A stretch of DNA of 64,000 nt from an uncultured Eubacteriales bacterium (GTDB taxonomy: Bacteria > Bacillota > Clostridia > Oscillospirales > CAG-272). Under the pieces are notes generated by a model. The model was not told the origin of the DNA, made no database searches, and saw only the letters and a program-made list of their open reading frames with translations. Made by a program: the position numbers and the translations under genes. Below are positions 37,161 to 62,583 of the stretch, piece after piece. The stretch is from the NCBI GenBank assembly GCA_949747515.1, contig CATKFO010000058.1, positions 1 through 64,000 on the forward strand. The letters are read 5' to 3'. Position 1 is the stretch's first letter. Each line of letters opens with the position of its first letter.

Positions 37161-38435
37161 CTATTCCGCCTCCCTTTCAGAAGCAAAGTCTCCGAAAACG
37201 CCGTTTTCGAAAATTTCGTCGTAAACAACGTCGTCTTCCGGCTCATTTCCGAAGTACAAGCTTTCTCCGGCCAAGGCGGACAGACCGTATCTAAGCGCCG
37301 CGGCCGCTACGTCTCTTTCTTCCGGATTTGTTGAAGTAAGCATTGGTTCGAGAGTGCGATAAAATTCTCCCCTGAGGGCGGGATCTAACCGCAGTTCATC
37401 CGCGTCGAGAATAGGTAATGTTTTATCTATCAGCTTAAGAGTAAACAGACGTTTTCCACATTCCTCTTCCAGAGCGGGCAGATTAGGCGCGAAAGAAGAC
37501 GAAACTCCGCCGGTAAGCGTAATTCTGAGCAGCGTTTTATCGTCGAAACCGCTTTTGGAAATATAATCGTTTATTTTTTCCCTTAAGTCTGCGATATTTT
37601 CCGCTCCGCTTGCGTCGAGGTTTTTGGTCTCGTATCGTCTTCGTGAAAAACGCAGTTTTCGCGCCGTTACTTTGGGTCTGTTCTCCATCTCGTCTATTCC
37701 AAAATCAGAGGTATAGGCGCTCTCGTTCGACGGTTCGATAATTACTTCAACCGCGCCTTTGATTCCTGTTTCGTCAAACGATCGTCCTTCGAGACATCCG
37801 CAGTACATAATTCCCTCTCCTATTGAATCCCATGCGGGCGACGGATTGTGAATATGTCCAAGAGCGGTATAGTCCGCTCCAAATCTCCGTATTTCGTCGG
37901 TCGTTATGGGACAGGAGCGCGAGGAGGCGGACGTAACGTCTCCGTGACCGCACAAAATGTTAATTCGGCTTGGGTTCATGCTTTTCGCCGCTTCCACCGC
38001 GGCCGCGCCCTTTAAAGGAGAAGATTCCATAAAACGCGAAGTAAAAGCCCATCCGTAGACGGTTACTCCAATTTCTGGAAAATCAAAAAAATCTATGCTC
38101 TCGTTAGTGAAAACGTAAGCGTTCTGCGGAAGAAAGTTCTTAGTCCAGACGCTTCCTTCGGTAACCGGGTCGTGATTACCCGGCGCGATGATTACGGGGC
38201 ACGACAGCTTTTGTATTTCCGAGGAAATAAGAGCGAGAGTTTCTCTAGTAACGAATCCTACGTCGAAAAGATCCCCAGCGATAAGTACGATATCCGCTTT
38301 TTCCGTTCTTGCGTACGTCATAAGAGAGGTAAATGCGGCGCGAAGCTCTTGTCTGCGTACTTCTGATTTTCTTGGGTCGAGACCGCGAAACGGACTGTCC
38401 AGGTGAACGTCGCCGGTGTGGATAATACGGATCAT
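37161..38435 (-). CDS. yhaO: YhaO-like DNA repair metallophosphoesterase (SbcD-type)
   Basis: This 424-aa protein has the calcineurin-like phosphoesterase motifs of SbcD/Mre11: HTGDVHLDSPF (motif I, about residue 6), IAGDLFD (motif II), APGNHDP (motif III), CGHGDV and LGHIHNP (C-terminal His motifs). It is expected to be a Mn-dependent nuclease acting on DNA ends with the YhaN ATPase encoded directly downstream. Residues 240-424 form the capping and ATPase-binding region. It is the first gene of the pair; a pyrimidine-rich gap of about 140 bp separates it from mrnC. Ligand residues are intact. Confidence 0.93.
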   Translation of the reverse strand: MIRIIHTGDVHLDSPFRGLDPRKSEVRRQELRAAFTSLMTYARTEKADIVLIAGDLFDVGFVTRETLALISSEIQKLSCPVIIAPGNHDPVTEGSVWTKNFLPQNAYVFTNESIDFFDFPEIGVTVYGWAFTSRFMESSPLKGAAAVEAAKSMNPSRINILCGHGDVTSASSRSCPITTDEIRRFGADYTALGHIHNPSPAWDSIGEGIMYCGCLEGRSFDETGIKGAVEVIIEPSNESAYTSDFGIDEMENRPKVTARKLRFSRRRYETKNLDASGAENIADLREKINDYISKSGFDDKTLLRITLTGGVSSSFAPNLPALEEECGKRLFTLKLIDKTLPILDADELRLDPALRGEFYRTLEPMLTSTNPEERDVAAAALRYGLSALAGESLYFGNEPEDDVVYDEIFENGVFGDFASEREAE

Positions 38436-40803: not shown

Positions 40804-41685
40804 TCAGTCTTCAATCGGAGAGTGACCGCACAAAGAGGTCAGTAAAGCCTCAAGATCGTCGTTATCGGTAAATTCAAGAGTTACGGCTCGTTTTTTCGCC
40901 GTCGCGGTAATTTTACATCTTCGTCCGAGCGCGGTTGTAACCTTTTCTTCAAGATCGGCGATATAGTCGACTTTGGTCGAAGTCGGAGATTCGTTTTCTT
41001 CGGTTTCCGGTTTGGCCCTATTCGCCGATTTTACCGCCGCTTCAAGCTCGCGTACGGAAAGCGACCGGACGACGGTCTTTTCCGCAAGCGGAATAATAGC
41101 TTCTTTATTTTTCAGCCCTAAAAGCGCTCTTCCATGACCCGCCGAAAGAGTTCCGTCGGCGAGCATATCGAGAACTTCGTCGGGGAGATCGAGCAGTCTC
41201 AGGGAGTTTGCTATTGCGCTGCGGCTTTTGCCTATATGAGACGCTATTTCTTCCTGAGTGAGAGAATAGTTCTTCATCAATTCGGCGTAACCGAGCGCCT
41301 CTTCGCAAGGATTCAGGTCTTCGCGCTGGAGATTTTCAACCATTGCTATTTTTGCGGCCGTAAATTCGTCCGCGTTCATGATTATAGCCGGAATCTCAAT
41401 AAGGCCGGCTAACTTAGACGCCCTCCAGCGACGTTCTCCAGCGATAATAGTATACGAGCCTTCCATTCCTTCTCTTACAAGTATTGGTTGAAGCACGCCG
41501 CTTTGCGCTATGGAATCCGCGAGGCTTGCGAGAGCTTCGTTATCGAATTTTTTTCTCGGTTGATCCTTTTTTGGCTCTATGGAGGAAATTCGGATCATAG
41601 TTGCTCCTCCTGCTTTGCTTTCGTCTATGGAATTGTCGTCGAAAATCGCGTCGAGGCCTCGACCGAGTCCTTTATTCTTTGCCAT
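40804..41685 (-). CDS. parB: Chromosome-partitioning protein ParB (Spo0J)
   Basis: This roughly 293-aa parS-binding CTPase opens with the standard AKNKGLGRGLDAIFDD. The CTP-binding GERRWRASKLAG and ENLQREDLNPCEEALGYAEL follow, then the HTH TQEEIASHIGKSRSAIANSL. The C-terminal dimerisation region is KKRAVTLEFTDNDDLEALL. I prefer ATG at 41685 over the TTG at 41697 because the family begins there. With ParA it segregates origins. It is downstream of parA, but a 538-bp gap with a copy of the dispersed repeat separates them, although in most relatives the two are adjacent or coupled. Two perfect parS sites lie at 43.3-43.4 kb. Confidence 0.95.
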   Translation of the reverse strand: MAKNKGLGRGLDAIFDDNSIDESKAGGATMIRISSIEPKKDQPRKKFDNEALASLADSIAQSGVLQPILVREGMEGSYTIIAGERRWRASKLAGLIEIPAIIMNADEFTAAKIAMVENLQREDLNPCEEALGYAELMKNYSLTQEEIASHIGKSRSAIANSLRLLDLPDEVLDMLADGTLSAGHGRALLGLKNKEAIIPLAEKTVVRSLSVRELEAAVKSANRAKPETEENESPTSTKVDYIADLEEKVTTALGRRCKITATAKKRAVTLEFTDNDDLEALLTSLCGHSPIED

Positions 41686-41837
41686 TCTTTTATCCAAACC
41701 TTTATATTATTTTTAGATCAACTTATATATCTTGCTTGTCCCCATAGCAAATTATTATATTTAGGGGATGTAATTTTATTTTCTTATGGCGTCGTTTCTA
41801 CTTTTTTATTAAAAGATTATTATAATTTGTTTTTTTG

Positions 41838-42235: not shown

Positions 42236-43012
42236 CTATCCGATAGTTCTGCGTATAAGTTCTTTAGCTACCGTGCGGTATGCAAGACACCCTTTTGAAT
42301 ATCTGTCGTGATAATTAATTGGTTCGCCGAAGCCAGGAGCTTCCGAAAGAGTTACATTTCTCGGTATAACAGTCGGAAATAGCTTGTCTGCGTAATATCT
42401 TTTTATCTCGGCAAGCACTTGCGAGGATAAATTAAGCCTTCCGTTGTGCATGGTTACAAGAATACCGGTTATTCTTAAATCGGGATTGTAGCGTTCCTTC
42501 ACCTTTTTTATTGAAATCATGAGCTGAGATAATCCCTCAAGGGCATAATATTCGCATTGCATAGGAATTATTACCCCGTCGGCAGATGTGAGCGCGTTCA
42601 CAGTAAGCATACCGAGAGACGGCGGACAATCTATCATTACATAGTCGAAGTCGTCGCCTAATTTTTTCACAAAATTAGAAATTCGTTTTTCTCTTTTTTC
42701 TTCGCCGATCAAATCAAATTCGGAACCTGCGAGATTTATAGTAGCCGGAACGATAGATAAGTTTTTGAATTTTGTCGAGATAATGGCTTCGTCCGGACGA
42801 ATTTCCTCAATGAGCACGTCGTACATGGTCCGTGTAAGCTTTTTTTTGTTAATGCCGAATCCGCTCGTTGTATTTCCCTGCGGATCACAGTCTAACATAA
42901 GTACCTTATAGCCTTCTTCAGCAACAATAGAAGCTATATTAACGGCGGACGTCGTCTTTCCAACTCCGCCTTTTTGGTTGGCGAAAGCAATAACATATGG
43001 TTTGTTTGGCAT
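42236..43012 (-). CDS. parA: Chromosome-partitioning ATPase ParA (Soj)
   Basis: This 258-aa deviant-Walker ATPase has FANQKGGVGKTTSAVNIA (Walker A with the signature Lys, about residue 9), LDCDPQGNTTSGFG and VMIDCPPSLGMLTVNAL (Walker B region). Length and motifs fit Soj, which dimerises on DNA with ATP and works with ParB to separate origins. The C-terminus is YRTVAKELIRRT. It lies about 445 bp from noc, which is further upstream on the same strand. This gap carries both parS sites. The start at 43012 is ATG. Confidence 0.96.
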   Translation of the reverse strand: MPNKPYVIAFANQKGGVGKTTSAVNIASIVAEEGYKVLMLDCDPQGNTTSGFGINKKKLTRTMYDVLIEEIRPDEAIISTKFKNLSIVPATINLAGSEFDLIGEEKREKRISNFVKKLGDDFDYVMIDCPPSLGMLTVNALTSADGVIIPMQCEYYALEGLSQLMISIKKVKERYNPDLRITGILVTMHNGRLNLSSQVLAEIKRYYADKLFPTVIPRNVTLSEAPGFGEPINYHDRYSKGCLAYRTVAKELIRRTIG

Positions 43013-43294
43013 ATTTATGACGCCTTTACTTAAAATTTGTTTTTTTGTTTATTCTGCTTTTTAACACTTTGCCCTTTTTCGCAAGTCGTCAAAGCATACG
43101 CATTTAGATTTATTTGTATTTATACCATGAAGCAAAAATGTTTGCTTGCAAGGACGTTTTTGCGAAGCCGTCAATTATGCGGCCGCGCTCGGCGCGGGTG
43201 CGGCGAAGCCGCAAAAACTTACGAAGTAATGTTTCCGCGTTTATTATACCACATTACGGAACAGGCTTCAATAATATAATAAAAATAAATCGAA

Positions 43295-43310
43295 TGTTTC
43301 ACGTGAAACA
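43295..43310. promoter_or_regulatory. parS site 1
   Basis: TGTTTCACGTGAAACA is a perfect 16-bp parS palindrome, the ParB (Spo0J) binding consensus. Confidence 0.95.
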
Positions 43311-43407
43311 TATGCGTTATATTGCCGCGTTTAATTTGACTAAAAGAAAATTATAAATAATCGTTATGTTTTTGCAGAAAAACTTACTAAGTTATATGCA
43401 AATTAAA

Positions 43408-43443
43408 GACGCGTAATTGTTTCACGTGAAACAATTACGCGTC
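43408..43443. promoter_or_regulatory. parS site 2 inside a 36-bp perfect palindrome (probable noc terminator)
   Basis: The central 16 bp (43418-43433) are TGTTTCACGTGAAACA. The flanks extend the perfect symmetry to 36 bp (outer arms GACGCGTAAT/ATTACGCGTC). It lies 15 bp after the noc stop and the minus strand continues with TTTAATTTGC, so the transcript could form a terminator-like hairpin. Confidence 0.9.
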
Positions 43444-43457
43444 CTGAGAAAGAATTA

Positions 43458-44294
43458 TTAAGCTTCATGAATTAAAATGCATATTTCCGTTCCCCTGTCA
43501 GTTGAGCGTCGGTCGCTTTCTACGTTAAATCCAAGGTCTTTAACTGAACGGACGGCACGGTCTATTGAATTATAAAATAAACGCATATCGCGGGAGAGCA
43601 TTTTTCGTTTTGCCTCTCTTCCAAACTTCTCAGCCCTTTCTTCTGTTTTTTGGCGGGCTTTGTCGCAAAGCAGCTTTTCTATAAATTCTTCGGTTGAGGC
43701 GACGTTTAAACCTCGGCGAATAATTGTAGCTAATGCTTCCGCGCGTTCATTGTCGTCTGAAATGCGAAGAAGAGTACGCGCATGACGTTCAGTTAACCCG
43801 GCTGCAAGTATCGCCTCTCTTTGCTCCGTCGGCAGTTTTAACAAACGAAGCTTGTTGGCTACATAGGATTGACTGCAAGATAAACGAGCGGCGGCGGCTT
43901 CCTGAGTCATAGAACAGGTTGAAATAAGAGAGCGTATCGCCTCTGCTTCTTCAAAAACATTAAGGTCTTCCCGTTGCAGATTTTCAATTATTGCAAGTTC
44001 TGCGGAGCTTTTGGGATCGTCGTCGCGAATTATGCAAGGTACTGTTTCAAGACCCGCTGCTGAAGACGCCCGTAGTCTTCTCTCTCCTGCGATAAGTTCG
44101 TATCCTCCCTCAATTTTTCGAACAAGCAAAGGCTCTATTACGCCGTGGCGGCGAATGCTGTCCGACAGAGATGCAAGAGCGCTGTCGGCAAATATTCGTC
44201 TTGGCTGCGCTGGATTAGGCACGATCTGCGACGTAGGAATCTGAACGATAGCCTGTCCTAAAACAGGAAATATTGAGAGCTCTGCGTGATTCAT
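43458..44294 (-). CDS. noc: Noc-type ParB paralogue (nucleoid occlusion protein)
   Basis: This 278-aa ParB-family CTPase begins with a divergent N-terminus (MNHAELSIFPVLGQAIVQ), which in Noc includes a short membrane-binding helix. IVPNPAQPRRIF, GERRLRASSAAGLETV and ENLQREDLNVFEEAEAI follow. The HTH is TQEAAAARLSCSQSYVANKL, and the Noc-like HARTLLRISDDNER comes after it. Synteny upstream of parA and parB is that of noc in Firmicutes, where Noc blocks division over the chromosome. The usual rsmG-mnmG-mnmE set upstream is missing. I searched by eye and found no ATTTCCCGGGAAAT site in the window. Confidence 0.85.
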   Translation of the reverse strand: MNHAELSIFPVLGQAIVQIPTSQIVPNPAQPRRIFADSALASLSDSIRRHGVIEPLLVRKIEGGYELIAGERRLRASSAAGLETVPCIIRDDDPKSSAELAIIENLQREDLNVFEEAEAIRSLISTCSMTQEAAAARLSCSQSYVANKLRLLKLPTEQREAILAAGLTERHARTLLRISDDNERAEALATIIRRGLNVASTEEFIEKLLCDKARQKTEERAEKFGREAKRKMLSRDMRLFYNSIDRAVRSVKDLGFNVESDRRSTDRGTEICILIHEA

Positions 44295-61707: not shown

Positions 61708-62583
61708 ATGAGTAAAAGATTAAGAACGAGAAATCATACGGTCGTACTGAACCGATCCTCGGGAGGCGACGCCGGAATCACAGTTTTCCTGGTTCTTTTA
61801 GGCGCGTTCATGTTCCTGCCGATGGTATACAGCTTTCTTCAGTCTCTGAAACCTCTGAACGAGCTGTTCTACTTTCCTCCCCGCTTCTTTGTTTCTAAGC
61901 CGACCCTTGGAAACTACGCGTCGCTTTTTAGCTTGATGGACTATTCTTGGGTTCCATTCTCCCGCTATATTTTCAACACGGTGTTTATATCCGTTGCGGG
62001 AACCTTCGGAAACCTGGTTCTGTCGTCTCTTGCGGCGTACTCCCTTGCGAAGATCGACTTCCCGGGAAATAAATTTTTCTTCCAAATCATTCAGAAATCT
62101 CTGATGTTTACTCCCGCTATCGTGGCTACCCTTCAGTTTATTATATATTCAAAGCTGCATTGGGTTGACACATATATCGCCGTTATCGTGCCGGCGTGGT
62201 CTACGTCGCTCGGCCTTTACCTCATGAAAAACTTTATGGATTCCAACGTAACCACCGAAATATTGGAATCTGCGAGACTTGACGGCGCCAGAGAGTTCAG
62301 AATATTCTGGTCTATCGCTATGCCTATGGTTAAACCGGCTTGGCTGACCCTGATTATTTACTGCTTTAAGGATTTGTGGCAGATGTCGAACACCACTCTT
62401 ATTCACAGCGAGCAGCTTAAAACGCTTAACTACGCTATCGGAAAGGTGTCCGAAGGTACGATCGCAAGAACGGGCGTGTCGGCGGCCGGCACTATGTTCA
62501 TAATGATCGTTCCTATCGCGGTATTTATTATTTCACAGAGCAACATCATTGAAACGATGGGCTCCAGCGGTATGAAGGATTAA
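61708..62583 (+). CDS. Carbohydrate ABC permease 2 (MalG-like)
   Basis: This roughly 291-aa permease has the MalG family pattern: about six helices starting near residue 24 (GITVFLVLLGAFMFLPMVYS), and the EAA loop ESARLDGAREFRIFWSIAMP (about residue 185). The C-terminus is MFIMIVPIAVFIISQSNIIE followed by TMGSSGMKD, as in MalG-type exits. The upstream stop is at 61703-61705. ATG at 61708 follows AAAGGTAGG with good spacing and is preferred over GTG at 61702. It completes the channel of the importer; translational coupling to permease 1 is likely. Confidence 0.93.
   Translation: MSKRLRTRNHTVVLNRSSGGDAGITVFLVLLGAFMFLPMVYSFLQSLKPLNELFYFPPRFFVSKPTLGNYASLFSLMDYSWVPFSRYIFNTVFISVAGTFGNLVLSSLAAYSLAKIDFPGNKFFFQIIQKSLMFTPAIVATLQFIIYSKLHWVDTYIAVIVPAWSTSLGLYLMKNFMDSNVTTEILESARLDGAREFRIFWSIAMPMVKPAWLTLIIYCFKDLWQMSNTTLIHSEQLKTLNYAIGKVSEGTIARTGVSAAGTMFIMIVPIAVFIISQSNIIETMGSSGMKD

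Follow-up and report, generated by a model that had tools for sequence, protein, structure and literature searches.

The window, by which we mean the whole 64,000-nucleotide stretch of DNA that was analysed, carries parB, parA, and noc on its minus strand, with two exact parS sites between noc and parA. The features of this region are as follows.

40804..41697, minus strand: parB (spo0J), the expected parS binder, with R and G at the two switching positions (KSRSAIANSLRL, LSAGHGRAL)
42236..43012, minus strand: parA (soj), recognized by ParA-family matches, with orthologues after noc in relatives
43243..43271, minus strand: predicted parA promoter TTGAAG-17-TATAAT with an extended -10 (10/12 consensus positions, TG before the -10)
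43295..43310, no strand assigned: parS-2, a perfect parS used as the comparison site, in a palindrome of only 18 bp
43398..43407, minus strand: candidate U-rich tail TTTAATTTGC after the stem, judged by its tail score
43408..43443, minus strand: perfect palindrome of 36 bp, proposed as the stem of a parS-terminator for noc, judged by its sequence, its fold z, and covariation in relatives
43418..43433, no strand assigned: parS-1, candidate 16-bp ParB loading site with an exact consensus match
43458..44294, minus strand: noc, encoding a ParB paralogue (nucleoid occlusion protein) with the NBS-type residues Q, K, K, R, judged by NCBIfam TIGR04285 and structure alignment

The sequence GACGCGTAATTGTTTCACGTGAAACAATTACGCGTC at 43408–43443 of the window is palindromic without mismatch over 36 bp and includes parS-1 (TGTTTCACGTGAAACA, 43418–43433), which matches the 16-bp consensus with 0 mismatches. 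This confirms the initial annotation, which described a parS inside a 36-bp perfect palindrome with 10 bp of symmetric flank per side. The annotation was also right in placing the site past the noc stop, the end of which lies at 43458 on the minus strand, although the gap to the palindrome was counted as 14 bp instead of the 15 bp that it gave; the T-rich run that it described after the palindrome in the noc direction was found as TTTAATTTGC. Exact or near parS sites are expected by chance 0.01 times in the window, and the chance of ten further symmetric pairs is ~0.26^10 (~1e-6) at the base composition of the flanks in the family sample. The ten added pairs at parS-1 are not due to chance. 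Only two exact parS sites were present in the 2.34-Mb assembly (94% complete), parS-1 and parS-2, the latter located between parS-1 and parA, upstream of the predicted parA promoter.

Folding of the noc-strand RNA yielded a hairpin of 16 pairs with an ACGU loop and a free energy of -28.8 kcal/mol (z = -7.3 versus shuffles; 0/200 shuffles). As in an intrinsic terminator, the hairpin is stabler than its shuffles and the stop codon lies 14 bp before it. The candidate tail TTTAATTT scored 3.14 on the noc strand versus 0.55 on the opposite strand. A simple terminator scan of the region omitted the parS-1 hairpin from its list, probably because two T's of the tail pair into the stem, leaving 4 T in 8. 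No Rfam match was found in the region.

The noc product is Noc-like: on the Noc model NCBIfam TIGR04285 it scored 276.6 bits, under the cut-off of 315 but above the 239.7 of the ParB in the window. Alignment of the noc product to the Noc structures 7ol9/7ng0 gave csQs, anKl, llKl, and teRh at the four positions that govern the choice between NBS and parS (PMC7383237). Noc was rejected as the reader of parS-1, because the Q-K-K-R residues select NBS over parS; the site should therefore be read by ParB, the translation of which has R and G at two switching positions and is of the parS-reading type by the same rule. An assignment of parS-1 itself as an NBS was likewise rejected, as its core is parS and not ATTTCCCGGGAAAT-like. 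NBS-like matches within the window were confined to 38215–38228 and 62057–62070. Across the assembly, 27 NBS-like places were found with at most two mismatches, versus 2 for a reversed control pattern, suggesting a genuine Noc–NBS system in this uncultured Clostridia genome.

To relate parS-1 to other sites, samples of exact parS were gathered at the class, family, and genus levels without regard to their flanks. At least seven extra perfect flank pairs were present in 6/43 sites of the class, 6/42 of the family, and 2/17 of the genus, compared with swapped-flank expectations of 0.02, 0.02, and 0.06, respectively. In the class and family samples, Clostridia parS with at least seven flank pairs were thus at least 100 times commoner than in the swapped-flank controls, and most of the sampled sites had no extension. 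The length distribution of loop-free palindromes in general was likewise long-tailed, with some of them probably being terminators; length by itself therefore does not mark out parS. Flank symmetry was greater at sites with the symmetric core variant TGTTCCACGTGGAACA than at those with the asymmetric TGTTCCACGTGAAACA (p 3e-4), a comparison confounded by the appearance of most asymmetric-core sites inside genes; the TGTTCCACGTGGAACA core occurs in long stems, and the asymmetric core is rare there. A covariance model, built from nine extended stems and containing no tail columns, matched in 155/291 class genomes and 104/249 phylum genomes, the weaker matches including near-plain parS; since the nine stems were chosen as palindromic, their pair counts describe covariation and do not prove it.

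The initial annotation named conservation of the flanks in relatives as a check. The flank sequence proved not to be conserved, while the pairing was kept where a long stem exists. Within the genus of the window genome, all 10 genomes whose fetched stretch includes the noc end have a parS no more than ~45 nt from it. Long stems behind noc were restricted to the window genome and G147 among these ten, most congeners having parS behind noc without one. The G147 stem has 11 flank pairs, and the flanks are unrelated, GACGCGTAAT in the window genome versus AGGAGTAAAA in G147. In a third congener (G151), a 12-pair stem lies between the convergent ends of apparent pyk and degV. Changes on both arms were seen in two further genera. 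Three orthologous sites before parA in genus g110 differ by ATAGGAA/TTCCTAT to AGAGGAA/TTCCTCT, with the surroundings otherwise conserved, and sites in genus g33 differ by AGAGGA/TCCTCT to AGGGGA/TCCCCT; both changes are compensatory and affect the same position, where G-C stands in place of T-A in g110 and in place of A-T in g33.

Several other arrangements were observed among the relatives. In the three g110 loci (L277–L279), the extended parS stem directly adjoins an apparent parA promoter (TTGAAA, then TATAAT), and judging from this layout, a few dozen bp may hold terminator, centromere, and promoter together. Locus L033 (genome G063) contains at 1501–1555 two extended parS palindromes with unrelated flanks, 39 bp apart, which follow one gene and precede parA, with a U tail on the first only. 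In L052 and L054, the last matched noc codon is followed after 6 nt by a parS-like site with one change, and the fetched stretch gave no parA match. The 4.2-Mb genome G041, which belongs to the family of the window genome, contains 313 parS-like sites (at most one mismatch), and two of its congeners contain 4 and 2. The 400 kb sampled from G041 (loci L281–L300) held 45 parS-like sites, nearly all in 4/20 contigs; the four rich contigs had 7–11 exact parS per 20 kb in mosaics that appear to be intergenic, flank symmetry was almost absent, and the base composition of G041 gave no sign of a foreign bin.

The positions of extended sites, defined as having at least six flank pairs, were compared with those of plain sites (87 distinct extended versus 130 plain sites). 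For the relatives, genes were picked simply as ORFs, and related genomes supplied a few of the sites. A stop codon lay within 60 nt of the 16-mer in 51/87 extended versus 44/130 plain sites (p 4.5e-4), and location inside genes was rarer for extended sites (7/87 versus 28/130, p 0.008). For extended sites flanked by a stop on a single side, a subgroup picked after a first test on all sites, the gene-strand tail was U-richer than that of the other strand by 30:12 (p 2e-4), or by 32:10 when the tail was scored strictly after the stem (p 4e-5). Because the search model contained no tail, this asymmetry does not depend on the way in which the sites were collected. Plain sites near a stop showed no U-tail asymmetry (p 0.3–0.7), and no significant asymmetry emerged when all co-directional extended sites were taken regardless of stop distance (p 0.22). 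The stop-proximal type is seen clearly at L086 (GCCACCCCAAAA-parS-TTTTGGGGTGGCTTTTTT), L085, L101, L120, L124, and L064, the last from Clostridium psychrophilum, where the site lies behind noc and has 22 flank pairs. The U tails were weak at some noc-end stems (G147, G033, and G137). G-U was not favoured on the gene strand at the first stem break (11 G-U versus 8 A-C), so selection at the RNA level is not shown by wobble pairs.

The non-chance pairing, the free flank sequence, the proximity to stops, and the near-stop U tails together point to a parS fused with the noc terminator, and parS-1 is probably a parS centromere element that has been turned into the upper stem of the intrinsic terminator of noc. 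As DNA, parS-1 would load ParB. As RNA, the self-complementary parS and its ten added pairs would form the 16-pair hairpin with the ACGU loop, which together with UUUAAUUU would halt RNA polymerase at the noc end, before parS-2 and the parA promoter. The palindrome, its position, its one-sided U tail, its recurrence, and its pair-level conservation in relatives can be read from the DNA itself; ParB loading at parS-1 and transcript ends there are what we infer from them. The proposal of the initial annotation that the same DNA serves as ParB site and terminator hairpin thus gains support, the flanks being paired with a sequence that varies, the extended sites clustering behind stops, and the gene strand carrying a U tail at those near stops. 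The occurrence of such sites with other flank sequences suggests that the double use recurs in many other Clostridia.

Termination does not explain every case, since ~40% of the extended sites (36/87) lie more than 60 nt from a stop, are AT-richer, and have little tail asymmetry. Such stems, together with the tandem pair in G063, would suit a role at the DNA level, in which the extended symmetry helps ParB clamps to load or a cruciform to extrude at the centromere. The flank sequence is free, most sampled parS are unextended, and the established target of ParB is the 16-bp parS, all of which argue against such a role and make it highly improbable. The sites away from stops, with their AT-rich flanks, are also what would be expected if parS seeded a single-stranded DNA hairpin during replication and template switching copied one flank onto the other, the stems having no selected function and gene ends merely tolerating them. 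Template switching can make and maintain a perfect stem in one event (PMC8794818). A purely mutational origin predicts neither the U tail on one side that sets extended sites near a stop apart from plain ones nor the GC-richer flanks of stems near stops (0.38 versus 0.21 in the others), and we consider it unlikely. Template switching could instead be a partner explanation for the origin of the stems and a rival for those far from stops: its 'palindrome correction' may help to build extended sites, of which selection retains those that terminate.

Control of termination by ParB would add to the parS-terminator reading instead of competing with it. In this hypothetical scheme, ParB acts as a roadblock or alters the use of the hairpin, so that noc output tracks ParB occupancy. 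The precedents diverge: in P. aeruginosa ParB represses genes beside parS3/parS4, whereas in B. subtilis loss of Spo0J left the genes beside its sites unchanged (both reviewed in PMC7022226, where the word stem 'terminat' is absent), and we regard such control at noc as very unlikely. A broader proposal, which we judge quite unlikely, is that centromere and terminator have fused repeatedly in Clostridia, and that ParB occupancy would couple segregation to transcript ending at noc or neighbouring genes, or that termination would keep polymerase traffic off the loading site and the parA promoter.

The parS-terminator reading suggests a second constraint on bacterial centromeres, in that a parS can top a terminator stem, which would help to explain why many sites lie between genes, just behind stops. 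The evolutionary route would be easy, a palindromic protein site requiring a few pairs and a U tail. A conflict between transcription and segregation at parS also becomes directly testable through the flank pairs, with the ParB core left intact. No report of parS-terminators was found in the open-access literature searched.

Like the parS of Bacillota (B. subtilis type), parS-1 has the exact 16-bp core and lies next to parAB. The asymmetric sites seen here are mostly apparently within coding sequence and lack flank symmetry, whereas parS-1 follows a stop and has ten symmetric pairs in addition to its core. With intrinsic (Rho-independent) terminators it shares a strong stem and a short loop soon past a stop, followed on the gene strand by what may be a U-rich tail; it differs from ordinary ones in that its upper stem is predicted to be a centromere sequence that binds a protein and is constrained in its own right. 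Of the systems known, the neisserial DNA uptake sequence (DUS) terminator comes closest by analogy: it, too, is an intrinsic terminator with a short protein-read DNA motif inside its inverted repeat (PMC2397512). A DUS-type assignment was rejected, as the motif is parS and the arms hold no uptake sequence, and the likeness is one of analogy only. DUS terminators use two inverted DUS as their arms and function in DNA uptake, whereas at parS-1 a single palindromic parS tops the stem and the lower stem is of unrelated sequence.
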